This document shows, one piece after another, positions 23,556-42,796 of a stretch of 64,000 nucleotides of DNA (within the stretch, counting starts at the first letter, position 1; every line of letters starts with the position of its first letter). The translations under genes were made by a program, and so were the position numbers. The notes beneath the pieces are model-generated. The model did not search any database and had not been told where the DNA came from. It saw nothing but the letters and a program-made list of their open reading frames with translations. Source of the stretch: Roseobacter cerasinus. GTDB taxonomy: Bacteria > Pseudomonadota > Alphaproteobacteria > Rhodobacterales > Rhodobacteraceae. The stretch spans positions 124,001-188,000 of the forward strand of contig NZ_BLIV01000003.1 of assembly GCF_009811755.1 (NCBI RefSeq), given 5' to 3'.

Positions 23556-24815
23556 ATGCGCAGAGTAGTTGTCACGGGGCTGGGTCTGGTCACGCCTTTG
23601 GCGGATGGGGTCGAGGCGAGCTGGTCGCGGATTCTGGATGGTCAGTCTGGCGCGGGGCCGATCACCGGGTTTGACCCCAGCAAGCTGGTGACGCAATACG
23701 CCTGCGAAGTGCCGTTGGGGGATGGCAGCGATGGTACCTTCAACGCGGATGCGTATATGGAGCCGAAGGACCAACGCAAGGTGGATACTTTCATCCTGTT
23801 TGGTCTGGCCGCCGCACAGCAGGCGGTTGAGGATTCCGGTTGGCAGCCGGAAGACCGGGAGAGCCTGGAGCGCACCGGCGTTCTCATCGGGTCGGGGATT
23901 GGCGGGCTGAACTCCATCGCCAACACAGCGATTATGATGAATGAGAAGGGCCCGCGCCGCGTGTCGCCCTTCTTTGTGCCGGGCGCGCTGATCAATCTGA
24001 TCTCCGGTCAGGTGTCGATCAAATACGGGTTCAAGGGGCCGAACCACTCGGTGGTGACGGCTTGTTCGACGGGCGCGCATGCGATTGGCGATGCCAGCCG
24101 TCTCATTCAGCATGGCGATGCGGATGTGATGATTGCTGGCGGGGCTGAGGCCGCAATCTGTGAAATCGGGATTGCCGGGTTCAACGCCTGCAAGGCGCTC
24201 AGCACCAAACGCGCGGATGATCCGCAGAAAGCCAGCCGCCCCTATGATGCGGACCGCGACGGGTTTGTCATGGGGGAAGGCGCAGGTATCGTGGTGCTGG
24301 AAGAATATGAGCACGCGAAGGCGCGGGGCGCCAAGATCTATGCCGAGGTGCTGGGGTATGGGCTGTCCGGGGATGCGTACCACATCACGGCACCATCCGA
24401 GGACGGCGAAGGCGGTGAACGCTCGATGCGGGCGGCGCTGAAGAACGCCGGGCTGGAGCCGAAGGATTTGGACTATATCAACGCGCATGGCACCTCGACC
24501 ATGGCGGACACCATCGAGCTTGGCGCGGTGGAGCGGCTGATGGGCGCGCATGCGGGCAAGGTCACGATGTCGTCGACCAAATCCGCCACCGGGCACCTTC
24601 TGGGGGCGGCGGGGGCCATCGAGGCGATCTTCTCGATCCTCGCGATTCGGGACCAGGTGGCGCCGCCGACTATCAACCTCGACAACCCGGCCGTGGAGAC
24701 GGAGATTGATCTGGCGCCCAATGCCAAGCGCGAACGGGAGGTCAATGTGGCCTTGTCGAACTCCTTTGGCTTTGGCGGCACCAATGCGAGCGTCATCTTC
24801 GGGAAGATGCGCTGA
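23556..24815 (+). CDS. fabF: 3-oxoacyl-ACP synthase II (KAS II)
   Basis: This 419-residue condensing enzyme has the catalytic triad Cys170 (VTACSTGAHAI), His311 (NAHGTSTM) and His347 (SATGHLLGA), and the usual start RRVVVTGLGLVTPLA. It elongates acyl-ACP with malonyl-ACP. The ATG at 23556 is preceded by GGAAGGGG; an in-frame GTG at 23523 is rejected. Its stop overlaps the mltG start by one base, so the two are translated together. Confidence 0.97.
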   Translation: MRRVVVTGLGLVTPLADGVEASWSRILDGQSGAGPITGFDPSKLVTQYACEVPLGDGSDGTFNADAYMEPKDQRKVDTFILFGLAAAQQAVEDSGWQPEDRESLERTGVLIGSGIGGLNSIANTAIMMNEKGPRRVSPFFVPGALINLISGQVSIKYGFKGPNHSVVTACSTGAHAIGDASRLIQHGDADVMIAGGAEAAICEIGIAGFNACKALSTKRADDPQKASRPYDADRDGFVMGEGAGIVVLEEYEHAKARGAKIYAEVLGYGLSGDAYHITAPSEDGEGGERSMRAALKNAGLEPKDLDYINAHGTSTMADTIELGAVERLMGAHAGKVTMSSTKSATGHLLGAAGAIEAIFSILAIRDQVAPPTINLDNPAVETEIDLAPNAKREREVNVALSNSFGFGGTNASVIFGKMR

Positions 24816-25981
24816 TGTGGCGTCATATCGCCTCCAACGCGGTCACGATGCTGATTGTGCTGTTGTTTCTGATGGGCGGTCTGATCCTTTGGGGTCGTGG
24901 GCAATATCAGGCGGCGGGGCCGCTGGAGCAGGCAATTTGTTTGCAGGTGGAGCGCGGCTCCAACATGCGGCGGGTGAGTGTTGACTTGGAAGACCGAGGT
25001 GCGGTGAGCTCGTCGACCATTTTCCGCATGGGCGCGGATTATGCCGAGAAAACAAGCCAGTTGAAGGCGGGCAGCTATTTGGTGGACCCTGGCGCGTCGA
25101 TGGAAGAGATCGTCGATATCGTGACGCGCGGCGGGGCGAGCACCTGCGGCACGGAGGTGGTCTACCGCATTGGGGTGAACCGTTTGGGTGTGCAGGTGCG
25201 CGAGCTGGACCCGGGCACCAACCGGTTTGAAGAGCAGGCGAGCTTTACCCCCGCCGAGGATGAGACGCCGGAGATCTACACCGAGAAGAAGGCCGCAGCG
25301 GACACGCGGTTTCGCGTGGCTCTGGCGGAAGGTGTGACCAGTTGGCAGGTGGTTGAGAGCCTGAAGGCGATGGATGTGCTGGAAGGGGCTGTAGACGATC
25401 TGCCGCCCGAAGGGTCTCTGGCTCCTGACAGCTATGAGGTGCAGCCGGGTGATGACCGTGCGGCGATCATCGCGCGGATGCAGGAGGCGCAGGAGTTGCG
25501 CGTGGCGCAGGCCTGGTTGAACCGCGACGAGGATTTGCCGATTGAAAGCCCGGAAGAGCTGTTGGTGCTGGCTTCGATCATCGAGAAAGAGACCGGGGTC
25601 GCGAATGAACGCGGGCAGGTGGCCAGCGTCTTTGTGAACCGGCTCAATCGCGGCATGCGGCTGCAGACCGACCCGACGGTGATTTATGGCGTGACCGAGG
25701 GCAAGGGTGTGCTGGGGCGCGGGTTGCGGCAGAGCGAGCTGCGGGCAGCGACGCCGTGGAACACCTATGTGATCGAAGGGCTGCCGCCGACGCCGATTGC
25801 GAACCCCGGGATTGCGAGCCTTGAGGCAGCAGCGCGACCGCTGGAGACGCCTTATGTGTTCTTTGTGGCGGATGGGACCGGTGGACATGCGTTTGCCGAG
25901 ACACTGGCCGAGCACAACCGCAATGTTGCGAAATGGCGCGAGATCGAACGGCAGCGCGCCACCCCGTCGTCGGGCAATTGA
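24815..25981 (+). CDS. mltG: endolytic transglycosylase MltG
   Basis: This 388-residue protein has an N-terminal membrane helix (MLIVLLFLMGGLILWG), a LysM-like segment and the YceG domain with the catalytic Glu in LLVLASIIEKETGV, followed by RLNRGMRLQTDPTVIYG and the C-terminal ATPWNTYVIEGLPPTPIANPG (key parts WNTYVIEGLPP). MltG cleaves nascent glycan strands and sets their length. The fabF-mltG overlap is common in alphaproteobacteria. It is the last gene before the gene transfer agent cluster, and no T-rich terminator was found directly after it. Confidence 0.95.
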   Translation: MWRHIASNAVTMLIVLLFLMGGLILWGRGQYQAAGPLEQAICLQVERGSNMRRVSVDLEDRGAVSSSTIFRMGADYAEKTSQLKAGSYLVDPGASMEEIVDIVTRGGASTCGTEVVYRIGVNRLGVQVRELDPGTNRFEEQASFTPAEDETPEIYTEKKAAADTRFRVALAEGVTSWQVVESLKAMDVLEGAVDDLPPEGSLAPDSYEVQPGDDRAAIIARMQEAQELRVAQAWLNRDEDLPIESPEELLVLASIIEKETGVANERGQVASVFVNRLNRGMRLQTDPTVIYGVTEGKGVLGRGLRQSELRAATPWNTYVIEGLPPTPIANPGIASLEAAARPLETPYVFFVADGTGGHAFAETLAEHNRNVAKWREIERQRATPSSGN

Positions 25982-26091
25982 AGCAGGCCTAGGCCGTGGC
26001 CTGAAAGCCCACCGCACCTGCTGGTTTTGACGGGGTTTGCGCTGTGTTCGCGGACGGCCCGTCGGCCTCACAGCACGGAAATCGTTAATGG

Positions 26092-26103
26092 CACCGTACG
26101 GTG
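26092..26103. promoter_or_regulatory. 12-bp perfect palindrome upstream of the GTA promoter
   Basis: CACCGTACGGTG is fully self-complementary. Its centre is about 67 bp before the predicted start of transcription, a usual site for an activator. The GTA activator GafA is known to act on the corresponding promoter in Rhodobacter capsulatus, but whether this palindrome is its site is a guess. A second dyad, GACGG-C-CCGTC, lies at 26053-26063 inside a larger hairpin (26041-26074). Confidence 0.45.
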
Positions 26104-26129
26104 GTCCCCTCTTAACAATTTGATTTTTC

Positions 26130-26158
26130 TTGACTTTGCGTGCGCTGATCCGTATAAC
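26130..26158 (+). promoter_or_regulatory. predicted sigma70-type promoter of the GTA operon
   Basis: TTGACT (26130-26135) and TATAAC (26153-26158) match the -35 and -10 consensus at five of six bases each, with an ideal 17-bp spacer. Transcription should start near 26165, about 100 bases before the first GTA codon. A strong terminator follows only ~20 bases later. Confidence 0.72.
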
Positions 26159-26184
26159 TTGTGACACGCTAGAAGAAGTGGGCG

Positions 26185-26220
26185 AACGACCCCGGGAGTA
26201 ATCCCGTTGGGTCGTTTTTT
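26185..26220 (+). terminator. strong intrinsic terminator inside the GTA leader (possible attenuator)
   Basis: AACGACCC pairs with GGGTCGTT, and inside it CGGGA pairs with TCCCG around a GTAA loop, with two unpaired T. Six T follow (26215-26220). It lies between the predicted promoter and the first gene, so without read-through the RNA would be about 55 bases long. It could instead simply end transcripts arriving from mltG. Confidence 0.8.
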
Positions 26221-26225
26221 CGTTT

Positions 26226-26255
26226 CTCTCGTGCGGAGACTACGCGCATGAGAGG
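26226..26255 (+). promoter_or_regulatory. hairpin covering the g1 ribosome-binding site
   Basis: CTCTCGTGCG (26226-26235) can pair with CGCATGAGAG (26245-26254) with one G-T pair. The right arm contains GAGAGG (26250-26255), the only good Shine-Dalgarno for the g1 ATG at 26266. Folding would hide it, so translation of the first GTA gene may depend on opening this stem. Confidence 0.5.
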
Positions 26256-26265
26256 TAGAACCTGA

Positions 26266-26610
26266 ATGACCTTAATCACCCCGGAGCACGTAGAGTCGCA
26301 GACCGAAGATCTTTTGAATTCGGTCCTCGGTTCCATCAGAGATTTGCGGAAAGAACTGGAAGGCCTGAAAGAACGGGTCCGCGCAACGGATGGAGCTGCG
26401 ACAGCGCAAGGGTCCAAGACCGTGATGCAGGCTGCATCGCTGCTGGAGACCTGTCAGAAAGTGGAGAACCGCCTTGTCGAATGTCGAAGCAAACATGCAG
26501 GGATCGCCCAAGGGGGCTATGCCCTCGATCTCGAAAAAGCACGGGCTACGATTTGCGGCAAGCTGGATAAGCTCCGCGCCACGCGATCTACAGGAGCAAT
26601 TTCTGAATGA
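26266..26610 (+). CDS. g1: GTA small terminase subunit (gene g1)
   Basis: This 114-residue, largely helical protein (SQTEDLLNSVLGSIRDLRKELEGLKERV) has the size and position of gene g1 of the Rhodobacter capsulatus GTA, shown to be the small terminase. It would form a ring that brings host DNA to the large terminase; in GTAs it is thought not to recognise a specific site, so any chromosomal DNA is packaged. The g2 reading frame overlaps its 3' end by about 90 bases. The upstream leader is unusually structured. Confidence 0.85.
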   Translation: MTLITPEHVESQTEDLLNSVLGSIRDLRKELEGLKERVRATDGAATAQGSKTVMQAASLLETCQKVENRLVECRSKHAGIAQGGYALDLEKARATICGKLDKLRATRSTGAISE

Positions 26611-27889
26611 CCTTGATGAGGGAGAGCTTATGGCTCTCCCTTTTTTGTTCGAGTTCTGGGCGATGGAGCATCAGCTGCCGCCGGAGGGAGACTGGCGGTC
26701 GTGGGTGATCATGGGCGGGCGCGGTGCGGGGAAGACGCGCGCCGGGGCCGAGTGGGTGCGGGCGCAGGTTGAGGGCGCGCGACCGATGGATGAGGGACGG
26801 GCGCGCCGGGTCGCGCTTGTGGGGGAGACCGTGGACCAGGTCCGCGAGGTGATGATTTTTGGCGAAAGCGGGATACTGGCGTGTTCGCCACCGGATCGCT
26901 GTCCGACGTGGGAGGCGGGGCGCAAGCGGCTTGTCTGGCCCAATGGGGCGATTGCGACGGTGCATTCGGCCTTTGACCCGGAAGGGTTGCGGGGGCCGCA
27001 GTTTGATGCGGCCTGGGTCGATGAGCTAGCCAAGTGGAAGAAGGCCGAGGCCACCTGGGATATGCTGCAGTTTGCACTGCGGTTGGGGGATAAACCGCAG
27101 GTTTGTGTGACGACCACGCCGCGGAATGTGGGCGTGTTGAAGGCACTGTTGCAGTCGCCCTCGACGGTGGTGACGCAGGCGCCGACGGAGGCCAATGCGG
27201 CGAACCTCGCGGCCTCGTTTCTGGAGGAGGTGCGCGCGCGCTATGAGGGCACGCGGCTGGGGCGGCAGGAGCTGGATGGCGTCTTGCTGGAGGATGCGGA
27301 AGGGGCGCTTTGGACCTCAGCCGGGATTGAGAGCTGCCGGGTGCGCAAGCTGCCGGAGCTGGACCGGATTGTTGTGGCCCTTGATCCTGCGACGACGGGC
27401 AATGCGGGGTCTGATGAATGTGGGATCGTTGTGGCCGGTGTCAGGATGAGCGGACCGCCGCAGGATTGGAAGGCCACGGTGATTGCCGACTGTACGGTTG
27501 CGGGCGCAACGCCTGCGGGCTGGGCGCAGGCAGCGATTTCGGCCATGGAGCGCTTTGGCGCGGACCGGCTGGTGGCGGAAGTGAACCAGGGTGGGCAGAT
27601 GGTGGGGGAAGTGCTGCGTCAGGTGGATCCGCTGGTGCCCTACAAGGGGGTGCACGCGAGCCGGGGCAAGGTTGCGCGGGCTGAGCCCATCGCTGCGCTT
27701 TATGAGCAAGGGCGGGTCCGGCATATGCCGGGTCTTGACGATCTGGAAGACCAGATGTGCCGTATGACCTTGCAGGGCTATGAGGGCAAGGGGTCGCCTG
27801 ATCGGGTTGATGCGCTGGTCTGGGCGCTGCATGAATTGATGATCGAACCGGCGGCCAAATGGCGGGCGCCGCGCGTACGGTCCCTTTAA
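26519..27889 (+). CDS. g2: GTA large terminase (gene g2)
   Basis: The packaging motor ATPase/nuclease has Walker A GGRGAGKT, Walker B in FDAAWVDELAKW, a coupling motif CVTTTPR and, in the C-terminal RNase H-like nuclease, VVALDPATT and GADRLVAEVN-like segments (FGADRLVAEVNQGG). The start is uncertain: the ATG at 26519 has GGGGG two bases before it, while 26495 (ATG) and 26474 (TTG) are in-frame alternatives, all overlapping g1. It works with g1 and the portal to fill heads with about one head-full of host DNA. Confidence 0.93.
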   Translation: MPSISKKHGLRFAASWISSAPRDLQEQFLNDLDEGELMALPFLFEFWAMEHQLPPEGDWRSWVIMGGRGAGKTRAGAEWVRAQVEGARPMDEGRARRVALVGETVDQVREVMIFGESGILACSPPDRCPTWEAGRKRLVWPNGAIATVHSAFDPEGLRGPQFDAAWVDELAKWKKAEATWDMLQFALRLGDKPQVCVTTTPRNVGVLKALLQSPSTVVTQAPTEANAANLAASFLEEVRARYEGTRLGRQELDGVLLEDAEGALWTSAGIESCRVRKLPELDRIVVALDPATTGNAGSDECGIVVAGVRMSGPPQDWKATVIADCTVAGATPAGWAQAAISAMERFGADRLVAEVNQGGQMVGEVLRQVDPLVPYKGVHASRGKVARAEPIAALYEQGRVRHMPGLDDLEDQMCRMTLQGYEGKGSPDRVDALVWALHELMIEPAAKWRAPRVRSL

Positions 27890-27935
27890 CCGCTCGGTAA
27901 CATTCGGGCGTTGAGCCAAGCCTGTAGGGGCACGG

Positions 27936-27951
27936 GGCAGCGTACGCTGCC
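27936..27951. promoter_or_regulatory. 16-bp perfect palindrome between GTA genes g2 and g3
   Basis: GGCAGCGTACGCTGCC is fully self-complementary and sits in the 178-bp gap between terminase and portal genes. It shares the core CGTACG with the palindrome upstream of the GTA promoter. It could be an internal operator or an RNA hairpin; no T-run follows. Confidence 0.5.
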
Positions 27952-28067
27952 TTCTCACCTTTGAAATCGGAAATCGCCAGACTGTGGGCAAGCAAGATCA
28001 GCCGCCCGCGCCGATCTTTTGCGCGGGTGCAACTGACCCGCCGGCGAGCAACGAAGGAGCAGACAAC

Positions 28068-29246
28068 ATGGTTTTTGACTTTCTAAAACGCGGTGCGGTG
28101 AGTGAAGCACCCGAACAGAAAGCGAGCGCCGCCGGGCCGGTTGTGGCCTATCAGACCTCGGGCCGCGTGGCCTGGAGCCCGCGCGATGCGGTGTCACTGA
28201 CCCGGACGGGGTTTTCCAGCAATCCGGTGGGGTTTCGGTCGGTCAAGCTGATCGCCGAGGCGGCGGCGGCGCTGCCGCTGGTGCTGCAGGACACCGAGCA
28301 GCGCTATGACATTCATCCGGTGATCGACCTTGTGGCGCGTCCGAACCCGATGCAGGGCCGGGCGGAGTTGCTGGAGGCGCTGTATGCGCAGCTGCTGCTG
28401 AACGGGAATGGCTATGTCGAGGCGGTGGCAGGGGATGAGGGCCTCCCGGTTGAACTGCATGTGCTGCGCTCGGACCGGATGAGCGTGGTGCCCGGCGGGG
28501 ACGGTTGGCCGGTGGCCTATGAATACGCCGTGGGCGGGCGTAAGCACCGGTTTGATGTCACGGGCGCGCGGGTGCCGGTGTGTCACATCAAGAATTTCCA
28601 CCCGCAGGATGACCACTATGGCTTTAGCCCGATGCAGGCGGCAGCCATGGCCGTGGATGTGCATAATTCGGCCAGCCGTTGGTCGAAGGCTTTGCTCGAC
28701 AACGCGGCGCGGCCTTCGGGCGCGATTGTTTATCGCGGGGCTGAGGGGCAGGGCACCATGGCGCCGGACCAATACGAACGGCTGGTGCATGAGATGGAGA
28801 GCCATCATCAGGGCGCGCGCAATGCGGGCCGCCCGATGCTACTGGAAGGCGGACTGGACTGGAAACCGATGGGCTTTTCGCCTTCGGACATGGAGTTCCA
28901 GAAGAGCAAGGATGCCGCCGCACGCGAGATCGCGCTGGCCTTTGGGGTGCCGCCGATGCTGCTAGGCATTCAGGGGGACGCGACTTACGCGAATTATCAG
29001 GAGGCGAACCGGGCGTTCTATCGCCTGACGGTTCTGCCGCTGGCCACGCGGGTCACGGCGGCGCTGGCGCATTGGATTGCGGGGTTCACGGGAGCGCCGC
29101 TGGTGCTGAAGCCGGATCTGGACCAGGTGCCTGCGTTGGCGGCGGAACGCGATGCGCAGTGGAGCCGGGTGAGCCAGGCGGATTTCCTCACGCAGGCGGA
29201 GAAACGCGCGCTGCTGGGTCTGCCTGCGGAGGGAGGTGCCGCGTGA
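28068..29246 (+). CDS. g3: GTA portal protein (gene g3)
   Basis: This 392-residue HK97-type portal starts at the ATG at 28068, preceded by GAAGGAGC; an in-frame upstream extension to 27984 lacks such a site. Family signatures include FRSVKLIAEAAAALPL, the central MLLEGGLDWKPMGFSPSDMEF (key part WKPMGFSPSDMEF), and AAAREIALAFGVPPMLLGI. Twelve copies form the DNA entry channel at one head vertex and join head to tail. Its stop overlaps the start of g3.5 by four bases (GTGA). Confidence 0.95.
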   Translation: MVFDFLKRGAVSEAPEQKASAAGPVVAYQTSGRVAWSPRDAVSLTRTGFSSNPVGFRSVKLIAEAAAALPLVLQDTEQRYDIHPVIDLVARPNPMQGRAELLEALYAQLLLNGNGYVEAVAGDEGLPVELHVLRSDRMSVVPGGDGWPVAYEYAVGGRKHRFDVTGARVPVCHIKNFHPQDDHYGFSPMQAAAMAVDVHNSASRWSKALLDNAARPSGAIVYRGAEGQGTMAPDQYERLVHEMESHHQGARNAGRPMLLEGGLDWKPMGFSPSDMEFQKSKDAAAREIALAFGVPPMLLGIQGDATYANYQEANRAFYRLTVLPLATRVTAALAHWIAGFTGAPLVLKPDLDQVPALAAERDAQWSRVSQADFLTQAEKRALLGLPAEGGAA

Positions 29247-29545
29247 GCTCCGCGGAGAAAAAGTCGTTCAACCAGCATGTGATCTACCCGTTTGACGACT
29301 TTGAGAACGTCTTTCAACGGATTGATCAGCGCATGACGGCGATTGAACGCGCCACCGTCCTGCTGGAGCGGGAGCTCGCCGTGGCGGAGGAGAAACGCAA
29401 GTTCGTGGAGCAGCGGTTCAACCAGGTGGACACGCGGCTGGACCGGATCGACGGGCATATCTCGCGGCTGGTCTGGTTGATCATCGCGACCATCGTGGGG
29501 GGGCTGATGTCCTTCATCATGCGGGGCGCGATGTTTGGGCCGTGA
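29243..29545 (+). CDS. g3.5: GTA gene g3.5, small membrane-anchored or coiled-coil protein
   Basis: Starting at the GTG at 29243, within the portal stop codon and after GGGAGG, the protein is 100 residues. It has a charged, heptad-rich helix (DQRMTAIERATVLLERELAVAEEKRKF), then a hydrophobic C-terminal helix (LVWLIIATIVGGLMSFIM). The position between portal and protease matches g3.5 of the Rhodobacter capsulatus GTA, whose role is not known to me. The C-terminal helix suggests membrane attachment or a role in head assembly. Confidence 0.8.
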   Translation: MSSAEKKSFNQHVIYPFDDFENVFQRIDQRMTAIERATVLLERELAVAEEKRKFVEQRFNQVDTRLDRIDGHISRLVWLIIATIVGGLMSFIMRGAMFGP

Positions 29546-29623
29546 GATCGCCGCCCTGCTTTTTGCCAATGACGGTCGGGTGCGCCCCGGCCCTCGCATT
29601 CCCACTCAACGAGGAGAGTGACT

Positions 29624-30181
29624 ATGGATATCGACACCGGACTGGAGCGCAAGTTCGCTCGTTTCGGCGGCCCGCTGGAGGTGGAGGACGGCTGCGTGAT
29701 CAGCGGCTATGCCAGCCTCTTTGGCGCGGTTGATCAGGGCAATGACGTTGTGGCGGAAGGCGCTTATGCGGCCTCTCTGAGTGCGCTGGCGGCCAAAGGC
29801 GGCAAGGTCAAGATGCTGTGGCAGCATGACCCCGCGCAGCCCATCGGAATCTGGGATGAGGTGCGCGAGGATGCCAAGGGCCTGTGGGTTAAAGGCCGTT
29901 TGCTGGAGAGCGTGGCCAAGGGCCGTGAGGCGGCGGCGCTGATCGAGGCGGGTGCGATTGACGGTCTGTCCATCGGCTACCGGACGCGCAAGGCCACCAA
30001 GAATTCCAAGGGCCAGAGGCTCTTGCAGGAACTGGAGCTTTGGGAGGTGTCGCTGGTGACCTTCCCGATGCTGCCCAGTGCGCGGGTTGCGGGCAAGTCC
30101 GGTGAGACCGAGCTTGATCGTTCCCTGCGCGACATGGCCGCCGTCTTTGCAGGCGCGCGCGCCGATCTGGCGCGCCGTTAA
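29624..30181 (+). CDS. g4: GTA prohead protease (gene g4)
   Basis: This 185-residue HK97-type (U35) prohead protease has FARFGGPLEVEDGCVISGYAS near the start, the catalytic His in MLWQHDPAQPIG and the Ser/Gly region DGLSIGYR, followed by LWEVSLVTFPM. It cleaves the N-terminal delta domain of the major capsid protein during head maturation. The ATG at 29624 lies eight bases after GAGGA; a GTG two codons upstream is within the ribosome-binding site. Confidence 0.95.
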   Translation: MDIDTGLERKFARFGGPLEVEDGCVISGYASLFGAVDQGNDVVAEGAYAASLSALAAKGGKVKMLWQHDPAQPIGIWDEVREDAKGLWVKGRLLESVAKGREAAALIEAGAIDGLSIGYRTRKATKNSKGQRLLQELELWEVSLVTFPMLPSARVAGKSGETELDRSLRDMAAVFAGARADLARR

Positions 30182-30201
30182 CGCGCAGCTGTCGTCCCGG
30201 T

Positions 30202-30221
30202 CGCGCGGGAACGTTCGCGCG
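30202..30221 (+). promoter_or_regulatory. GC-rich hairpin before the major capsid gene
   Basis: CGCGCG (30202-30207) pairs with CGCGCG (30216-30221) around eight bases, 29 bp before the capsid start. It may mark an mRNA processing boundary or protect the 5' end of the capsid message. Confidence 0.4.
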
Positions 30222-30250
30222 GCCCTTACACACCAACAAGAGGATTTGCC

Positions 30251-31429
30251 ATGAGCAAGACCGAATGCAAAGCGGCGGGCGGGGACCCGATGAGCCCCGC
30301 TGAGGATGTCAGGCAGGCCGTGACCGGCTTTGTCACTGATTTCAAACGCTTTCAAGACGATATCGACATGAAACTTCAACAGACAGAAGAGCGACTGACC
30401 ATGCTTGACAAAAAGACATTGACCTCACAGCGCAGCCCCCTTGGCGGAGCCATCGACGCGGGCGCGCCGCATCAGAAAGCGTTCAACGCCTATTTGCGTT
30501 CGGGTGATGACGATGGCCTGCGCGGCCTGGAAATGGATGTGAAATCGCTGTCTACGGCAGTGAATTCCGACGGCGGCTATCTGGTTGATCCGCAGACGTC
30601 CGAAACGGTGAAGTCGGTGCTGAATGCGACCGCCTCCATCCGCTCCATCGCGGCGGTGGTGAATGTCGAAGCGACATCCTACGACGTGCTTGTGGACCAC
30701 ACCGATGTGGGCGCGGGCTGGGCCACCGAAGCGGGCACAACCGCTGAGACGGACACACCGCAGATTGATCGGATCACCATTCCGCTGCACGAGCTGAGCG
30801 CACTGCCGAAAGCCTCGCAGCGTCTGCTGGACGACAGCGCCTTTGACATCGAGACCTGGCTCGCGGCCCGCATCGCGGACAAATTCGCCCGCGCCGAAGC
30901 GGCAGCCTTCATCAATGGTGATGGCATCGACAAGCCCAAGGGCATTCTGGACCACACCTCGGTCGACAACGACGTCTGGACCTGGGGCACCATTGGTTAC
31001 GTGCCGACCGGCGTTGCAGGTGACGTGACAGCGGATGCGATCATTGATCTGGTCTACGCGCTGGGGGCCGAATACCGCGCCAACGCGACCTTTGTGCTGA
31101 ACTCCAAGACCGCCGGTCTGGTGCGCAAGCTGAAAGACAATGATGGCCGTTTCCTGTGGTCGGACGGTCTGGCTGCGGCTGAGCCTGCGCGTCTGATGGG
31201 CTATCCGGTGGTGATCGCCGAGGATATGCCGGATGCCGCCATCGATGCGACCGCGATTGCCTTTGGTGATTTCTCTGTTGGCTACACCATTGCCGAGCGT
31301 CCGGACCTGCGCGTGCTGCGTGACCCGTTCAGCGCCAAGCCACATGTGCTCTTCTATGCAACCAAGCGTGTGGGCGGCGATGTGAGCGACTTTGCCGCGA
31401 TCAAACTGCTGAAATTCGGCACCTCCTAA
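30251..31429 (+). CDS. g5: GTA major capsid protein, HK97 fold (gene g5)
   Basis: This 392-residue capsid protein has an N-terminal helical delta domain (~1-110, FQDDIDMKLQQTEERLTMLDKK as its coiled coil, key part QQTEERLTML), normally removed by the g4 protease, then the HK97 core (STAVNSDGGYLVDPQTS, FARAEAAAFINGDG, LMGYPVVIAEDMP, FGDFSVGYTIAERP). It builds the small GTA head. An AAGAGG site precedes the ATG. Strong hairpins lie both before (30202) and just after (31444) the gene, consistent with its need for high expression. Confidence 0.96.
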   Translation: MSKTECKAAGGDPMSPAEDVRQAVTGFVTDFKRFQDDIDMKLQQTEERLTMLDKKTLTSQRSPLGGAIDAGAPHQKAFNAYLRSGDDDGLRGLEMDVKSLSTAVNSDGGYLVDPQTSETVKSVLNATASIRSIAAVVNVEATSYDVLVDHTDVGAGWATEAGTTAETDTPQIDRITIPLHELSALPKASQRLLDDSAFDIETWLAARIADKFARAEAAAFINGDGIDKPKGILDHTSVDNDVWTWGTIGYVPTGVAGDVTADAIIDLVYALGAEYRANATFVLNSKTAGLVRKLKDNDGRFLWSDGLAAAEPARLMGYPVVIAEDMPDAAIDATAIAFGDFSVGYTIAERPDLRVLRDPFSAKPHVLFYATKRVGGDVSDFAAIKLLKFGTS

Positions 31430-31443
31430 GGGTGGTGACGATA

Positions 31444-31471
31444 CCGGCGCGGGGGATGCCCCTCGCGCCGG
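31444..31471 (+). promoter_or_regulatory. very stable hairpin 14 bp after the major capsid gene
   Basis: CCGGCGCG-GGGG (31444-31455) pairs with CCCC-T-CGCGCCGG (31459-31471), twelve pairs with one bulged T and a 3-base loop. There is no T-run, so it would act as a 3' stabiliser or partial attenuator between capsid and g6 messages rather than as a full terminator. Confidence 0.6.
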
Positions 31472-31590
31472 GCCGGGTGCGCGCCGGGACGTTTGTGTTG
31501 TCTAGCTGCTCCCCTCCGACCGAGCAATGCAGATGGGTGCGCGCCCGGTTTCCGGGTGGGGAAGCACAGTGAATTTGGAGACATTCGACG

Positions 31591-32190
31591 ATGATGTTGA
31601 TCGAAGAAACGACCGTGCCGGATGTGGCGCTCCCGATTGAGGCCTTCAAGGCGCACCTGCGGCTGGGCACCGGCTTTGGTCAGGAGAGCGTGCAGGATGA
31701 AGTCCTGGGAGGGTTTTTGCGAGCGGCAATGGCCGCGATTGAATCGCGCACCGGCAAGATACTGATGACGCGGACTTTCAGCTGGTCGCTGACCTTCTGG
31801 CGGGACCGCGATTGCCAGGTGCTGCCGGTGGCGCCGATCACAGCGGTGACGCGCCTGGCGCTGGTGACTCGCGATGGAACGACAACAGAGATTGCCGCCG
31901 ATCAGTATTGGCTGGAGCAAGACAGCCAGCGCCCGCGTTTGCGGGCTGTGGGCGCGCGTCTGCCGAACATCCCCCAAGCCGGATCGGCCGTGGTGGAGTT
32001 CGAGGCCGGGTTTGGCGCGGACTGGAGCGCGTTGCCGGCGGATCTGAGCCAGGCGGTGTTCCTGCTGGCCGCGCATTACTACGAATATCGCGACGAGACG
32101 TCGCTGCAGGAGGGCAGCATGCCCTTTGGCGTGAGCAGCCTGATCGAGCGCTATAAGGCGTTGCGCATCGGCGGCGGAGCACGCCGATGA
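31591..32190 (+). CDS. g6: GTA head-tail adaptor (gene g6)
   Basis: This 199-residue protein resembles the HK97 gp6 / phage connector family: PIEAFKAHLRLG at the start, FLRAAMAAIESRTGKIL, and WSLTFWRDRDCQVLPVAPITAVTRL (key part VLPVAPITAVTRL), ending in AVFLLAAHYYEYRDE. It docks below the portal as the first ring of the neck. The stop overlaps the g7 start by four bases. Tandem ATGs at 31591 and 31594 are equally possible starts. Confidence 0.88.
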   Translation: MMLIEETTVPDVALPIEAFKAHLRLGTGFGQESVQDEVLGGFLRAAMAAIESRTGKILMTRTFSWSLTFWRDRDCQVLPVAPITAVTRLALVTRDGTTTEIAADQYWLEQDSQRPRLRAVGARLPNIPQAGSAVVEFEAGFGADWSALPADLSQAVFLLAAHYYEYRDETSLQEGSMPFGVSSLIERYKALRIGGGARR

Positions 32191-32525
32191 CCGCGCCGCG
32201 ACTGAACCGGAAGCTTGTGCTTGAGGCCCCGTCGCGGCTGGAAGACGGCGCGGGCGGATATGTGGAAAGCTGGCAGGCGCTGGGCACCCTTTGGGCGCAG
32301 GTGCTGCCGCGCTCGGGCCGCGAGGCGGCGCTGGTAGGTGTCGCGATCTCGGCGACAAGCTACCGCGTGGTTGTGCGCGGCGCGCCGGAAGGGGATGCGC
32401 AGCGCCCGGTTCCGGGCCAGCGGTTTCGCGAAGGTGCGCGGCTCTTTCACATTGAAGCGGTGGCCGAGCATGACGCGGACGGGCGTTACCTCACCTGCTT
32501 TGCATCTGAGGAGGCAGCGGTATGA
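32187..32525 (+). CDS. g7: GTA head completion / stopper protein (gene g7)
   Basis: This 112-residue protein belongs to the phage head-closure family: LNRKLVLEAPSRLEDGAGGYVESWQALGTLWAQV (key parts APSRLEDGAGG and WQALGTLWAQV) and RLFHIEAVAEHDADGRYLTC. It forms the ring below the adaptor that seals the filled head and connects to the tail. It overlaps g6 and g8 by four bases each, so g6-g7-g8 are translationally coupled. Confidence 0.88.
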   Translation: MTAPRLNRKLVLEAPSRLEDGAGGYVESWQALGTLWAQVLPRSGREAALVGVAISATSYRVVVRGAPEGDAQRPVPGQRFREGARLFHIEAVAEHDADGRYLTCFASEEAAV

Positions 32526-32932
32526 GCTATGCCATGTCGGGCGCGCTGCAGGCCGCCATTTACGACGCGCTGATCAATGATGGGGCTGTTGCCGCGCTGG
32601 TTGGCCCGCACGTCTATGACGCGGTGCCAAGCGGCGTGGTGCCCGAGACCTACGTCAGCCTTGGTCGCGAGCAGGTGCGCGATGCGTCTGATCAGACAGG
32701 GGATGGCGCGCTGCATGATCTGGAGATTTCGATCATCACGGCGCAGCCCGGATTTGCCGCTGCGAAGGACCTCGCAGGTGCCATTTCAGACGTGCTGCAT
32801 GATGCAGACCTGACCTTAAGTCGCGGGCGGCTGGTCTTTCTGAAGTTCCAGCGGGCCGATGCACGCCGGGTCGATGCCAACACGGGCCGCGAGATCCGCA
32901 TGCGCTTTCGCGCGCGGGTCGACGCTGACTAA
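32522..32932 (+). CDS. g8: GTA tail terminator, DUF3168 family (gene g8)
   Basis: This 136-residue DUF3168 protein has ALQAAIYDALINDGAVAALVG at its start (key part ALQAAIYDAL), the central PETYVSLGREQVRDASDQ and a beta-rich C-terminus. Proteins of this type cap the tail tube and join it to the neck. It starts within the g7 stop codon. A 28-bp gap with AGGAGA follows before the tail tube gene. Confidence 0.88.
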   Translation: MSYAMSGALQAAIYDALINDGAVAALVGPHVYDAVPSGVVPETYVSLGREQVRDASDQTGDGALHDLEISIITAQPGFAAAKDLAGAISDVLHDADLTLSRGRLVFLKFQRADARRVDANTGREIRMRFRARVDAD

Positions 32933-32960
32933 TCAACAGATTTCAAACAGGAGATAACCC

Positions 32961-33374
32961 ATGGGTGCTCAGAACGGAAAGGACCTTTTGATCAAGGTCG
33001 ACATGACGGACAACGGGTCCTTCACCACGCTTGCGGGTCTGCGCGCCACGCGGGTGAGTTTCAACGCCGAGACCATCGACGTGACCACATTGGAGAGCCA
33101 GGGCGGCTGGCGCGAGCTCTTGTCGGGGGCCGGGGTGCGGTCTGTCTCGATCAGCGGGTCGGGTGTGTTCCGCGATGCGGATACGGATGAGCGCGCGCGG
33201 CAGCTGTTCTTTGATGGCGAGGCGCCGAATTTTCAGGTGGTGATCCCTGATTTTGGGATTGTCGAGGGGCCGTTCCAGGTCACCTCCATCGAATATGGCG
33301 GCAGCCACAATGGCGAGGCGACCTATGAGCTGTCGCTGGCCAGCGCGGGTGCGCTCAGCTTTACGGTGATCTGA
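32961..33374 (+). CDS. g9: GTA major tail tube protein (gene g9)
   Basis: This 137-residue tail tube protein has the family start AQNGKDLLIKVD, then TTLAGLRATRVSFNAETIDVT (key part GLRATRVSFNAETID), TLESQGGWRELLSGAGVRSVS and a beta-rich core ending ALSFTVI. Stacked hexamers form the tail tube through which DNA passes. A separate AGGAGATAAC site precedes the ATG, which would allow higher translation than the coupled genes on both sides. Confidence 0.93.
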   Translation: MGAQNGKDLLIKVDMTDNGSFTTLAGLRATRVSFNAETIDVTTLESQGGWRELLSGAGVRSVSISGSGVFRDADTDERARQLFFDGEAPNFQVVIPDFGIVEGPFQVTSIEYGGSHNGEATYELSLASAGALSFTVI

Positions 33375-33376
33375 CC

Positions 33377-33694
33377 ATGGCAAATCCCTGGAGGGGCGAT
33401 GTGGCCTTGGTGATCGACGGCGAGACGCATGTGATGCGTCTGACGCTGGGGGCGCTGGCCGAGTTGGAAGCAGCGATGGAAGCGGACTCGCTGCTGGCCA
33501 TGGTGCAGCGCTTTGAGAGCAGCAGTTTCACGGCGGGTGATGTCCTGGCGTTGTTGCGGGCCGGGCTGAAGGGCGGCGGCTGCGGCGTCTCGGATGAGGG
33601 ACTGCTGCACGGCGACATCGAGGGCGGGCCGATTGCGGCAGCGCGCGCGGCGGCGGAGCTTTTGGCGCGCGCCTTCACGGCGCCACCTGCATGA
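33377..33694 (+). CDS. g10: GTA gene g10, probable tail assembly chaperone
   Basis: This 105-residue protein of the GTA-TIM/GTA gp10 family has GDVALVIDGETHVMRLTLGALAELEA, here marked by MRLTLGALAELE, followed by helices and an Ala-rich end. The N-terminal motif is shared by small chaperones that bind the tape measure protein in siphophages. It begins two bases after the g9 stop and overlaps g10.1 by four bases. Confidence 0.85.
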   Translation: MANPWRGDVALVIDGETHVMRLTLGALAELEAAMEADSLLAMVQRFESSSFTAGDVLALLRAGLKGGGCGVSDEGLLHGDIEGGPIAAARAAAELLARAFTAPPA

Positions 33695-33900
33695 GCCGGC
33701 TGGACTGGCCAGCGCTGATGCGGGTGGGCCTGCGCGGGCTGCGGTTGGAGCCGGAGGTGTTCTGGGCGCTGACGCCCGCCGAGCTGCAAATCATGCTGGG
33801 CGATCCTGCGCAGTCAGGGCCGCTGCTCAGCACCGGGTTGGAGGCCTTGATGGCCGCTTATCCGGACAATGACGACAAGGATGATGGCAATGACGGATGA
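33691..33900 (+). CDS. g10.1: GTA gene g10.1, phage tail assembly chaperone
   Basis: This 69-residue protein has the signature LDWPALMRVGLRGLRLEPEVFWALTPAELQIML (key parts LRGLRLEPEVFW and LTPAELQIML) of the small tail assembly chaperone found between g10 and g11 in GTAs. Its acidic end (YPDNDDKDDGNDG) overlaps the g11 start. The partner of g10 in loading the tape measure protein is the likely role. Confidence 0.85.
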   Translation: MSRLDWPALMRVGLRGLRLEPEVFWALTPAELQIMLGDPAQSGPLLSTGLEALMAAYPDNDDKDDGNDG

Positions 33901-34549
33901 GAGCGGTTTCGACGATCTGGAAGGGCGGGCGCAGGGGCTGAACGACACTCTGGGCCAGACCGGTCAGCTTGTTGCAGGGTTCGACACGGAGCTGCGACGG
34001 ATGAAGACGTCGCTGGAGGCCACGGGTCGCGACATTGCCGTGCTTGAGCGCGGGCTGAGCAGCGGGCTGCGCCGCGCCTTCGATGGGGTGGTGTTTGACG
34101 GAAACAGCCTGTCAACGGCGTTGGATACGCTGGCGAATAGCCTTGTGAATACGGCCTATAGCGCGGCGATTTCTCCTGTGACCAAGCAGGTCGGTGGATT
34201 GCTGGCGCAGGGGGTGGATGGGCTGATCGGGAGCATTCTGCCCTTTGCCGATGGCGCGCCCTTCAGCCAGGGGCGCGTGATGCCCTTTGCCACGGGTGGC
34301 ATTGTCAGCGGGGCCACGCCCTTTGGCATGCGCGGCGGTATGGGCGTGATGGGCGAGGCCGGGCCGGAGGCAATCATGCCGCTGGCGCGCGGGCCGGACG
34401 GCAAGCTGGGCGTGCGCGGTGCGGGCGGTGGTGGGCAGACCATCGTGATGAACATCAATACGCCCGACGTGAAGGGCTTCCAACGCAGCCAGGGCCAGAT
34501 CGCGGCGCAGATGACGCGGGCGCTGGGGCGCGGACAGCGCAATCGGTAA
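33890..34549 (+). CDS. g11: GTA tape measure protein (gene g11)
   Basis: From the ATG at 33890 the protein is 219 residues, very short for a tape measure but usual for GTAs, whose tail is about 50 nm. The N-terminal half is helical (FDDLEGRAQGLNDTL, TSLEATGRDIAVLERGL); the C-terminal half contains PFATGGIVSGATPFGMRGGMGVMGEAGPEAIMPL (key part GVMGEAGPEAIMPL), conserved in small phage tape measures. AAGG nine bases before 33890 supports this start; ATG codons at 33869, 33881 and 33884 are in frame. It overlaps g10.1 by 11 bases. Confidence 0.92.
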   Translation: MTDESGFDDLEGRAQGLNDTLGQTGQLVAGFDTELRRMKTSLEATGRDIAVLERGLSSGLRRAFDGVVFDGNSLSTALDTLANSLVNTAYSAAISPVTKQVGGLLAQGVDGLIGSILPFADGAPFSQGRVMPFATGGIVSGATPFGMRGGMGVMGEAGPEAIMPLARGPDGKLGVRGAGGGGQTIVMNINTPDVKGFQRSQGQIAAQMTRALGRGQRNR

Positions 34550-34568
34550 ATTCTAGGGGAGCAGACCT

Positions 34569-35201
34569 ATGCAGTTTCATGAAGTGAGGTTTCCGGCCAC
34601 GCTGAGCTTTGGTTCGGTGGGTGGCCCCGAACGGCGCACCGATGTGGTAACCATCAGCAACGGGTTCGAGGAGCGCAATTCGCCTTGGGCGCATTCGCGG
34701 CGGCGCTATGACGCCGGGCTGGGCATGCGGTCGCTCGATGATGTGGAGACGCTGATTGCGTTTTTCGAGGCACGGTTCGGGCAGCTCTTTGCGTTTCGCT
34801 GGAAGGATTGGTCGGACTACCGCTCGGCCAAGCCGTCGCTGGACATCACCGCCTTTGATCAGGTGATTGGAACCGGGGATGGGGTGCAGACGGAGTTTTC
34901 ACTGCTCAAGACCTACGAATCCGGCAGCCACACTTATGAGCGGCCGATCACCAAACCGGTGGTGGGTACGGCGCTTGTGGGTCTGGACGGGGCCGCGCTG
35001 GTGGAGGCCTCTGACTACGCAATCGACCACACGACCGGGGTGGTGACCCTCGCGGCTGCGCCCGCAGAGGGCGCGACGGTAACAGCGGGGTTCGAGTTCG
35101 ATGTGCCCGTGCGTTTTGACACCGACCGCATCCAGACCAGCATCGCCAGTTTCCAGGCGGGTGAAGTGCCCAATGTGCCCATCGTGGAGGTGCGGATCTG
35201 A
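34569..35201 (+). CDS. g12: GTA distal tail protein, DUF2460 (gene g12)
   Basis: This 210-residue DUF2460/TIGR02217 protein has FHEVRFPATLSFGSVGGPERRTDVVT (key part FPATLSFGSVGGPERRT), GFEERNSPWAHSRRRYDAG and FRWKDWSDYRS. It forms the hexameric ring at the tail tip that connects tube and baseplate. GGGGAGCAG precedes the ATG. Its stop overlaps the g13 start by one base, and g12-g15 are tightly packed. Confidence 0.95.
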   Translation: MQFHEVRFPATLSFGSVGGPERRTDVVTISNGFEERNSPWAHSRRRYDAGLGMRSLDDVETLIAFFEARFGQLFAFRWKDWSDYRSAKPSLDITAFDQVIGTGDGVQTEFSLLKTYESGSHTYERPITKPVVGTALVGLDGAALVEASDYAIDHTTGVVTLAAAPAEGATVTAGFEFDVPVRFDTDRIQTSIASFQAGEVPNVPIVEVRI

Positions 35202-36088
35202 TGCCGGGGATGGATGCAGGGCTGCAGGCCCATCTGGAGGGGGGGCTGACCACCGTCGCCCATGCCTGGGCGATCACGCGTAAGGACGGCGTGGTGCTGG
35301 GTTTCACTGATCATGATCGGGAGCTGAGTTTTGATGGCATCACCTTCCGGGCAGATACGGGGTTAAGTGCGGTTGCTCTGTCGCAGAGCACAGGCCTGTC
35401 GGTGGACAACACCGAGGCGCTGGGGGCGTTGAGCGATCTGTCGATCCGCGAGGATGAGATCGAGCAGGGGCGGTTTGACGAGGCGGCTGTCGAGGCCTGG
35501 CTGGTCAATTGGCAGAATGTGGATCAACGCTGGCTGCAGTTTCGTGGCTCCATTGGTGAGCTGCGCCGGGCCGATGGTGGCTTTCAGGCGGAGCTGCGGG
35601 GGCTGACTGAGCTGCTGAACCGTCCGCTCGGCCGAGTTTATCAGACGCCGTGCACGGCAGTGCTGGGTGACAGCAGCTGCCGGTTTGACATGGCTACGCC
35701 CGGATTCTCCATCGAATTGCCGATTGAGGAGGTGAGCCAGTCGCGTGTCTTCCGCTGGGAGGATTTCGGCGGATTTGACGCGGGCTGGTTCACGCGGGGC
35801 CGCATGGAGATCCTCAGCGGCGCGGCGGCGGGCCTTTGGGGCATGGTCAAGCAGGACCGCTTTGAGGGGTCGCAGCGTGTGATCGAGCTGTGGGAGCCGG
35901 TGCGCAGTGCGCTGACACCGGGCCAGACCGTTCGATTGATCGCGGGCTGTGACAAGCGCAGCGAGACCTGCCGTATGAAGTTTTCGAACCTGGTCAACTT
36001 CCAGGGCTTCCCGGATGTGCCGGGCGAGGACTGGATGATCGCGGTGCCGAAATCCACTGGTGCCAACACGGGCGGGAGCCGCAGATGA
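35201..36088 (+). CDS. g13: GTA baseplate hub protein, DUF2163 (gene g13)
   Basis: This 295-residue protein matches the phage BR0599/DUF2163 family: AHLEGGLTTVAHAWAITRKDG (key part LTTVAHAW), GFTDHDRELSF, and the cysteine-bearing region TPCTAVLGDSSCRFDM and GCDKRSETCRMKFSNLVNFQGFP (key part CDKRSETCRMKF). In GTA particles it forms a hub trimer, and the Cys cluster may bind an iron-sulfur cluster as in related tail hub proteins, which is inference here. It overlaps g14 by four bases. Confidence 0.93.
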   Translation: MPGMDAGLQAHLEGGLTTVAHAWAITRKDGVVLGFTDHDRELSFDGITFRADTGLSAVALSQSTGLSVDNTEALGALSDLSIREDEIEQGRFDEAAVEAWLVNWQNVDQRWLQFRGSIGELRRADGGFQAELRGLTELLNRPLGRVYQTPCTAVLGDSSCRFDMATPGFSIELPIEEVSQSRVFRWEDFGGFDAGWFTRGRMEILSGAAAGLWGMVKQDRFEGSQRVIELWEPVRSALTPGQTVRLIAGCDKRSETCRMKFSNLVNFQGFPDVPGEDWMIAVPKSTGANTGGSRR

Positions 36089-36531
36089 CACCGTTTCAGC
36101 AAAGCATTCTGGCGGAGGCCCGCGATTGGGTGGGAACACCTTATGTGCATCAGTCCGCCCGCAAGGGTGCGGGCAGCGATTGTCTGGGGCTGATCCGTGG
36201 CATTTGGATCGCGCTTTATGGGCAGGAACCGGAACCGGTGCCCGCCTATTCGATGGATTGGTCGGAGCCACAGGGCGAAGAGCGTCTGTGGGAGGCCGCA
36301 CTGCGGCATCTCGACCCGAAGCCGCTAGCGGAACCCGCACCTGCTGACGTTGTGCTGTTCCGCATGCGCAGCGGCGGGGTGGCCAAACATCTGGGCATCA
36401 TTGGCGAGATCGGGTCTTACCCGACCTTCATCCATGCCTATTCGCGCTTTGGCGTGATCGAAAGCCCTCTGAGCCTGCCCTGGCGGCGGCGCATCGTGGC
36501 CCGGTTTACATTTCCTGAGGAGACCCTCTGA
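36085..36531 (+). CDS. g14: GTA cell-wall peptidase, NlpC/P60 (gene g14)
   Basis: This 148-residue NlpC/P60 peptidase has the catalytic Cys in GAGSDCLGLIRGIW and the His in KHLGIIGE, preceded by ARDWVGTPYVHQ. It would cut peptide cross-links of the recipient wall so that the DNA can enter. It begins within the g13 stop and its own stop shares one base with the g15 start. Confidence 0.95.
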   Translation: MTPFQQSILAEARDWVGTPYVHQSARKGAGSDCLGLIRGIWIALYGQEPEPVPAYSMDWSEPQGEERLWEAALRHLDPKPLAEPAPADVVLFRMRSGGVAKHLGIIGEIGSYPTFIHAYSRFGVIESPLSLPWRRRIVARFTFPEETL

Positions 36532-40481: not shown

Positions 40482-40491
40482 GCCTGGGGCG

Positions 40492-40519
40492 GGTCGGGTG
40501 CTGCGCCACCCGACCATTT
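40492..40519 (+). terminator. hairpin closing the GTA operon
   Basis: GGTCGGGTG (40492-40500) and CACCCGACC (40507-40515) form nine perfect pairs around a six-base loop, followed by ATTTC. The T-run is weak, but the stem is strong and lies right after the last GTA gene. Confidence 0.65.
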
Positions 40520-40610
40520 CGAAACGGAATATACACCATCACAGGTTTGCGTTTGGTCTCGGCCTCCTAAATGGGTTACCATAGTGGCCGATAGCAGAAG
40601 GATGGGCGCG

Positions 40611-41420
40611 ATGGCTGAACGCAAACCGAATATCACCCCGGTTGATCCTGCGTGGGATCAGATCTGTGCCGAGGCGCGACAGGCGGCTCTGGACGAGCCG
40701 CTGATGGGTGGCTTTCTGCATGCTTGCATTCTGCATCACAAGAACATCGAAAAGGCGCTCTCTTACCGGATCGCCGCCAAGCTGGCGTCTAACGAGATGT
40801 CGATGGTGGTCGTGCGCGAGATGGTCGAGGACGCCTATGCGAGCGATCCGTCACTGGTTCAGGCGGCGCGCGCGGATCTTGTGGCGATCTACGAACGCGA
40901 CCCGGCGTGCCACCGGTTGTTGCAGCCGATCCTCTATTTCAAAGGGTATCAGGCGATGCAGGCTTACCGGGTTGGGCATCACCTCTGGACGCAGGGCAAA
41001 CGCGATCTGGCGTATTTTGTGCAGATGCGGGTCTCGGAGATTTTTGGCGTTGACATCCACCCTGCGGCCCGCATCGGGAAGGGCATCATGATCGACCACG
41101 CGCATTCCATTGTCATCGGTGAAACGGCGGTGGTGGGGGACAATGTCTCCATGCTGCATTCGGTGACGCTGGGCGGCACTGGCAAGGAAGAGGAAGATCG
41201 GCACCCGAAGATCGGCAATGGCGTATTGATCGGCGCGGGCGCCAAGGTGCTCGGCAACATCAAGGTGGGCGATTGCAGCCGGATTGCGGCGGGTTCGGTT
41301 GTCTTGGAAGAAGTGCCGCCCTGCAAGACGGTCGCGGGGATCCCTGCGCGGATCGTAGGCGAGGCGGGCTGTGATCAGCCGTCCATTTCCATGAACCATA
41401 TGCTCGGCCCTCAGGCCTGA
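40611..41420 (+). CDS. cysE: serine O-acetyltransferase
   Basis: This 269-residue CysE makes O-acetylserine for cysteine synthesis. It has the helical N-terminal domain (DPAWDQICAEARQAALDEP, EKALSYRIAAKLAS) and the left-handed hexapeptide helix (IHPAARIGKGIMIDHAHSIVIGETAVVGDNV, key part MIDHAHSIVIGETAV) with the catalytic Asp and His. AGAAGG lies about ten bases before the ATG at 40611; the ATG at 40602 is too close to it. cysE also follows the GTA cluster in Rhodobacter capsulatus, so the neighbourhood is old. Confidence 0.96.
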   Translation: MAERKPNITPVDPAWDQICAEARQAALDEPLMGGFLHACILHHKNIEKALSYRIAAKLASNEMSMVVVREMVEDAYASDPSLVQAARADLVAIYERDPACHRLLQPILYFKGYQAMQAYRVGHHLWTQGKRDLAYFVQMRVSEIFGVDIHPAARIGKGIMIDHAHSIVIGETAVVGDNVSMLHSVTLGGTGKEEEDRHPKIGNGVLIGAGAKVLGNIKVGDCSRIAAGSVVLEEVPPCKTVAGIPARIVGEAGCDQPSISMNHMLGPQA

Positions 41421-41443
41421 GAGCTCTGTAGACACTGAAAAGA

Positions 41444-41468
41444 CCGGGGCTGAGCCCCGGCTTTTTTT
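41444..41468. terminator. intrinsic terminator between cysE and pdhC
   Basis: CCGGGGC-TGA-GCCCCGG (41444-41460) is followed by seven T, and AAAAG precedes it. It is an efficient terminator for cysE and possibly also for the convergent pdh operon on the minus strand. Confidence 0.92.
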
Positions 41469-41484
41469 GTTTTGAGCCTCGGCT

Positions 41485-42786: not shown

Positions 42787-42796
42787 GTCGCGCTCC

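Follow-up and report, generated by a model that had tools for sequence, protein, structure and literature searches.

A conserved terminator in the leader of the Roseobacter cerasinus GTA operon and its possible opening by GafA

In Roseobacter cerasinus the GTA operon stands, on the + strand, at the end of the order mltG, promoter, hairpin (referred to here as t1), g1, which raises the question of whether RNA polymerase starting at this promoter is stopped before it reaches the first gene, and of what would carry it past the stop. We addressed this question in the window, i.e., the whole stretch of 64,000 nucleotides that was analysed, and in related genomes. The assignment of the genes to a GTA was upheld by profile matches to the terminase, portal, HK97 capsid, RcGTA tape measure and megatron families. 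The first gene, g1 (26266..26610, + strand, ATG at 26266, 114 aa), is a small terminase by position, had no Pfam match and no NCBIfam match, and corresponds to a gene described as the small terminase in R. capsulatus in the text available of PMC6854486. It is followed by g2, the large terminase, an open frame at 26474..27889 on the + strand with a provisional start codon.

We propose that GTA transcription would begin at the sigma70 promoter and that t1 would halt the first transcript after about 55 bases. GafA would occupy the promoter spacer and/or a box at the start of the transcript, join the departing RNA polymerase, and make the polymerase ignore t1 and later stops such as t2 (described below), and the whole operon would be read only in cells with GafA. 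Judging from sequence and comparison, we lean towards this mechanism as a whole, with t1 as the gate of the operon and GafA as the factor that opens it. That t1 stops the polymerase in vivo is likely, and GafA, by its homology and its place in the system, would be the best single explanation for the opening. The switching of the GTA by GafA in few cells is thereby reduced to one question, namely whether the polymerase moves past t1 with GafA, and the mechanism, if true, would help account for the tight silence of the lethal GTA operon.

The promoter consists of a -35 element TTGACT (26130..26135, + strand, with TTGAC identical in all 61 rows of alignment A1, described below), a 17-base spacer (26136..26152, + strand) with the family consensus TTGCGAACGGTC followed by variable bases, which is a candidate site for the GafA C-domain, and a -10 element TATAAC (26153..26158, + strand), read directly and from A1. 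A conserved box, GCTAGAAGAAGTGGGC, lies at 26168..26183 on the + strand, 38 bases after the start of the -35 element, and is located at the predicted start of the transcript. As regards an early pause at which an antiterminator would be loaded, the box contains TAGAAG, a loose -10-like word whose second base is G in 23 of 98 loci. Next comes t1 (26184..26220, + strand), assigned by its fold, its covariation and its presence in 90 of 98 loci: the hairpin spans 26184-26217, has a GTAA loop and a 2-base bulge, and is followed by six T at 26215-26220. Its predicted energy is -22.3 kcal/mol (z -4.4), and none of 200 shuffled sequences folded as well. Direct reading therefore bore out the coordinates and order of the TTGACT / 17 bp / TATAAC promoter given in an earlier note on this DNA, as well as its strong intrinsic terminator about 20 transcribed bases after the promoter and before g1. 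The two-part stem given there as 8 plus 5 pairs is present too, with one pair more, i.e., 9 plus 5. A simple motif scan reported neither element, because its promoter pattern requires T at position 6 of the -10 element and its terminator pattern requires an unbroken stem; over the whole region it counted about as many sites as in shuffled sequences (3 vs. 3.0 promoter-like and 12 vs. 12.6 terminator-like). As far as sequence allows certainty, the promoter-terminator-g1 anatomy is certain.

The leader RNA was further analysed in alignment A1, which consists of 61 of the 76 box-bearing loci available at that stage and leans to well-behaved loci because 15 near-duplicate or poorly aligned ones were left out. 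RNAalifold found the terminator stem and an outer stem in A1 unaided, with both-side changes in 10 of 15 pairs. We also fixed a structure of 21 pairs, comprising the terminator and a hairpin over the ribosome-binding site; none of 500 shuffles reached it in any of five whole-structure measures, and sliding the partner by 1-3 columns lowered the pairing from 90% to 40-56%. The count of pairs with both-side changes taken alone did no better than the slid versions (13 vs. 9-13). Within t1, 97.9% of the cells in the lower stem were paired, and both-side changes occurred in seven of its eight pairs. This covariation in A1 indicates that the t1 hairpin has been maintained as an RNA structure despite sequence drift.

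We then compared the regions upstream of the large terminase in 117 GTA loci, comprising 100 distinct ones from near genomes and a named genome collection, 14 from the genus of R. capsulatus, and 3 from Paracoccus plasmids; the set is biased to near relatives, and many of its members are not independent. By one fixed procedure, the promoter and the box were found in 98 loci, 97 of which pass the -35 criterion while L052 was admitted on its box alone. The remaining 19 comprise 11 without a box (including the truncated contigs L076 and L085) and 8 that have a box with more than one mismatch and a weak -35 element. The distance from -35 to box is 36-38 bases in all 98 loci (the procedure searched 30-42 bases upstream). 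An intrinsic terminator within 80 bases of the box start, our criterion for t1, was present in 90 of the 98; in 83 of these 90 its hairpin starts 15-20 bases downstream of the first base of the box. It was also present in five of the eight loci set aside for a weak -35, giving 95 of 106 in all. The same criterion picked out 89 of 980 dinucleotide-shuffled leaders (9%), none of 294 windows placed in g1/g2, and none of the 98 reverse strands, on which ground t1 was rejected as an opposite-strand terminator. In several of the eight loci that it did not pick out, a hairpin is present and the T-run after it is shorter or interrupted. The conservation of promoter, hairpin and T-run across Rhodobacterales, a check that the earlier note had called for, thus came out in favour of an arrangement kept in most of the loci compared.

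To follow the leader more widely, we used a covariance model of the whole leader, tentatively referred to as R1. It had one match in its own genome, and matched 146 of 196 sampled genomes of the order, representing 75 of 87 genera (E<=0.01), while the terminase was found at 1e-60 in 188 of the 196. Distances to the terminase were taken from 137 R1 places, 31 of which have no listed terminase place (five genomes among these 31 have no terminase match at 1e-60); all 106 best matches with a listed terminase place share contig and strand with the terminase and precede it by 197-307 bases. R1 could serve as a sequence mark by which to find GTA promoters within the order. Among 192 genomes sampled from the class, besides two of the same family, there were four weak R1 matches (E 6e-5 to 7e-4), and the two of these that were inspected have no clear GTA terminase within about 1.5 kb on each side. 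Beyond the order, R1 no longer recognises the leader as a sequence. A phage origin of the leader was also considered and rejected on finding no DNA match in the phage collection, where the matches to the GTA terminase all have less than 60% identity.

Some lineages do without t1. Among 40 R1-negative GTA loci (39 from genomes without an R1 match, and G180, whose match is on another contig), the pair of motifs TTGAC/GCTRG is present in 24, and the criterion used for t1 finds a terminator in five of these 24; at least two further loci of this set (L136 and L143) lack a recognised box and have a terminator in the position of the leader one. In the genus g44, a leader terminator was found in none of the 11 loci examined (L115, L120-L122, L129, L131, L132, L135, L138, L140, and L153; the g44 genomes G156 and G165 are in the sample and outside these loci). 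The TTGAC/GCTRG pair is kept in 11 of 11, including L132, which was scored at the wrong place and in which the pair is readable further down. The promoter and a box-like sequence can be read in g44, and a hairpin over the ribosome-binding site is seen by eye; more generally, the box is still recognisable in loci without a leader terminator. Since g44 lacks t1 and every genome of the sample nevertheless encodes a DUF6456 protein, GafA control does not need t1. Antitermination in t1-less GTAs, if there is any, must act elsewhere, as in Caulobacter.

The existence of t1-less lineages would also suit the alternative that t1 is a partial terminator without a dedicated antiterminator, which lowers leakage while GafA only recruits the polymerase, and so would the finding that GafA works via the omega subunit in R. 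capsulatus (main text of PMC9638019). We consider this alternative unlikely, because a hairpin of -22 kcal/mol followed by six T is not weak by sequence, the strong covariation indicates that the full stem is kept, and the related GafZ is reported to antiterminate (PMC11150451, in the text available).

A second alternative is that t1 merely insulates the GTA operon from read-through out of mltG and stops transcripts from the GTA promoter only poorly; the earlier note had held a similar view to be the simpler one, with the true promoter elsewhere. In keeping with it, no strong terminator is listed between mltG and the promoter in the window, and mltG was matched in 85 of the 98 loci. Against it, t1 is found 3' of the promoter, at an almost constant distance, and is present in 12 of the 13 loci without an mltG match (in some of them with about 1.5 kb upstream covered). 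A terminator-like site before -35 occurs in 26 of the 98 loci, 20 of which also have t1. The case is clearest in Rhodobacter: mltG was matched in 14 of 14 loci, and 12 of the 14 have a terminator between mltG and the promoter, 10 of these 12 with t1 as well.

The R. capsulatus locus itself bears on both the promoter and the insulation. We identified the genome by its capsid, which is 100% identical to that of RcGTA in PDB 6tb9, and the g1 primers given in PMC6854486 (as far as its text is available) fit the start of its g1. Its leader reads TTGACT-spacer-TAGAGA-box-hairpin-TTTTTTC, with the box 92 to 77 and the hairpin (-17.7 kcal/mol) 76 to 50 bases before the g1 ATG. According to PMC6363796 and PMC9638019, the promoter elements (-10 and -35), the start of transcription and the fragment bound by GafA all fall roughly 75-125 bases 5' of g1, the bound fragment itself being 76-125. 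The hairpin begins where the GafA-bound fragment ends, and is transcribed from the GafA-bound promoter, and the order of promoter and then hairpin before g1, as claimed from the window, holds directly 3' of the published promoter. A separate terminator, AAAACCCCGGCTTCGTCCGGGGTTTTTTC, stands between the end of the mltG match (L171:694) and -35 (L171:761). Since R. capsulatus and other Rhodobacter carry such a pre-promoter terminator of their own, mltG read-through is unlikely as a general reason for t1; the view that t1 serves mltG only meets its strongest objection here and is thus disfavoured, and we regard insulation as improbable.

A third alternative, RNA-based attenuation, would have a leader peptide, a small RNA, a metabolite or a leader-binding protein choose between t1 and read-through. 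The box is conserved, and its 3' half may pair with sequence 3' of the T-run in a stem tentatively referred to as P1, with AGAAGUG at 26174..26180 as the 5' side and CGUUUCU at 26221..26227, directly after the T-run, as the 3' side (both + strand). P1 encloses t1, and 90.7% of its cells in A1 are paired, compared with 40-65% after sliding and 86.3% after shuffling (none of 500 shuffles as good). One pair changes from A-U to C-G in seven sequences. Support for P1 is moderate only, because two of its five measures in A1 were matched by 44 and 20 of 500 shuffles, and in 32 loci outside A1 the gain was modest (a mean of 5.9 of 7 pairs, compared with 5.1 in shuffles). As its 3' side follows the T-run, P1 would form only after t1 has been passed and would be unable to act before termination. 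A leader peptide read through the box was rejected: an ATG precedes CTAG in 58 of the 98 loci, with an 11-codon frame in 16 of these 58, but the window has ACG at that place and 40 loci have no ATG, and the stops are variable, the frames running from 5 to 41 codons with 12 of the 58 lacking a stop within 50. No known riboswitch or leader RNA was found by Rfam at E<=1 over 24000-44000. Attenuation of this kind is accordingly about as improbable as insulation. A fourth alternative, that the short leader RNA is itself the product, with the GTA promoter serving to make a regulatory small RNA, would agree with a conserved 5' end followed by a terminator, a typical small-RNA shape, and is very improbable, since g44 keeps the TTGAC/GCTRG pair without t1 and no short RNA could end at the t1 position there.

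Returning to termination at t1 and its opening by GafA, we found two more RNA elements in the path of the polymerase. The first is a second hairpin at 26225..26255 (+ strand, from the fold of 26164-26270), whose 3' arm, CGCAUGAGAGG, is the likely ribosome-binding site of g1 and whose 5' arm has three bases in common with the 3' side of P1. In its two helices, 80% and 84% of cells are paired, and both-side changes occur in four of 11 pairs; a crude tally of the loci in which the 3' arm of a hairpin includes the ribosome-binding site came to 33 of 98, which is weaker than the count from the alignment. The second, t2, is a terminator-like hairpin at 26618..26647 (+ strand), where g1 gives way to g2, within the open frame of the latter. 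It begins 8 bases after the g1 stop codon, so that translating ribosomes may mask it. t2 occurs in 41 of the 117 loci, mainly in relatives of Roseobacter, Sulfitobacter and Tateyamaria, and in none of the 14 Rhodobacter loci. There are two differing stem sequences, both of which pair, Tateyamaria having the other stem, and in relatives of Roseobacter and Sulfitobacter t2 is kept by codon choice. When the window sequence was resampled synonymously, 257 of 2000 versions had any terminator-like hairpin, and four of 2000 had one at -15 kcal/mol or better. A second hairpin embedded in codons at these loci fits a polymerase that has to pass several stops.

A wider reading would join these elements: GafA would be a Q-like processive antiterminator in most Rhodobacterales, including RcGTA, and the bistable switch would be a double lock, formed by t1 in the first ~55 bases (plus the codon-embedded t2 in the Roseobacter-Sulfitobacter-Tateyamaria group) and by the fold of the read-through leader, in which P1 and the ribosome-binding-site hairpin compete for the same three bases. 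We put this forward tentatively, as a possibility rather than an expectation. At the far end of the locus, a cysE-like gene (serine acetyltransferase, 40584-41464) lies directly 3' of the GTA genes, with a strong terminator at 41444-41460 after it. As cysE adjoins the GTA genes and the strong terminator comes only after it, cysE possibly lies within antiterminated transcripts; the title of PMC9552610 gives cysE1 a role in GTA transfer in R. capsulatus.

Upstream of the promoter, the palindrome ACCGTACGGT (26093..26102, no strand assigned) lies 37 bases before the start of the -35 element and is a candidate upstream operator, perhaps for the GafA N-terminal domain or for another regulator. It is exact in 22 of the 98 promoters and has two mismatches or fewer in 44 (vs. 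0.05% and 3.1% in base-shuffled controls), and 38 of these 44 copies sit 36-39 bases before -35. That it marks further members of a GafA regulon in this genome was unsupported, because its two other exact genome copies are near repA/parA-like and cobS/carD-like genes. Just 5' of -35 is TAACAATTTGATT (26113..26125, + strand), which is similar to the IHF consensus. Its pattern has a single match in the 64-kb window, yet at least one match in 40 of 100 shuffled windows; the exact consensus occurs in nine of the 98 relatives, compared with a shuffled rate of 0.4%.

The GafA of this genome is 392 residues long; DUF6456 occupies 245-382, and a helix-turn-helix was matched weakly near the N terminus, under the Pfam cut-off. 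DUF6456 was found in every one of the 196 genomes sampled from the order, and Caulobacter was the only one of 14 control genomes to have it. A TTAAC-N6-GTAAC site, of the kind known for gafA promoters (PMC6363796, in the text available), is located 72-87 bases before the gafA start. In addition, TTAACGAACGGGTAAC in the gafA promoter (L112:682-697) is a CtrA-type site that contains CGAACGG. This word is common to the gafA promoter and the spacer consensus of the GTA promoter, and is possibly a shared GafA recognition word.

Several known systems resemble the proposed one. In phage lambda, the late genes are held by a promoter-terminator pair that is opened by Q, and the lambda tR' is further from its promoter than t1 is. 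Both lambda Q at pR'-tR' and Pseudomonas AlpA likewise involve a terminator downstream of the promoter that is opened by a promoter-loaded protein (PMC11150451, in the text available). By its sequence, the window has two of the features of a Q/AlpA/GafZ-type system, in that a sigma70-type promoter is followed by an early terminator and a protein related to an antiterminator is encoded. The closest likeness is to the Caulobacter crescentus CcGTA, which also has a GTA operon, a sigma70 promoter and a GafA-related activator/antiterminator (PMC11150451). According to the available text of that paper, GafY is the counterpart of the N-terminal part of GafA and GafZ that of the C-terminal part, and GafZ requires an element between -35 and -10 (ZBE), joins the elongation complex and lets the polymerase pass a terminator; its authors suggest that GafA may act as an antiterminator like GafZ. 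The window spacer, a candidate element between -35 and -10, occupies the same place as ZBE, and an IHF-like site lies upstream in the window. Spacer and box are the conserved sequences at this place, and a palindrome of the Caulobacter type is not evident in the spacer by eye. The two systems differ in that GafA is one fused protein rather than two, and in the terminator, which in CcGTA consists of three 150-base GC-rich repeats after the first gene, with the start codon at +251 (PMC11150451), and in the window is a compact intrinsic terminator ending about 50-55 bases into the predicted transcript. Direct repeats of the Caulobacter type, of 30 bases or more, are absent from 26000-29300, where instead t2 is found at the g1/g2 junction.

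For R. capsulatus, PMC6363796 and PMC9638019 describe the same promoter and activator, with activation via the omega subunit in the latter, and the R. capsulatus locus has the same leader; in the portions available, these papers treat activation, and the word "terminator" does not occur in their main texts or in that of PMC6854486. Within the GTA literature covered, antitermination was found for Caulobacter only (PMC11150451), and a Rhodobacterales leader terminator goes unmentioned. Thus, of the leader antitermination suggested in the earlier note, the promoter-terminator-g1 order stands as conserved, while the idea itself is not new for GTAs, as it is already published for Caulobacter GafZ. 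What is added here is the conserved leader terminator of Rhodobacterales, of which an earlier printed description may exist. If GafA does open it, the GTA systems of Rhodobacterales and Caulobacter would come under one mechanism.
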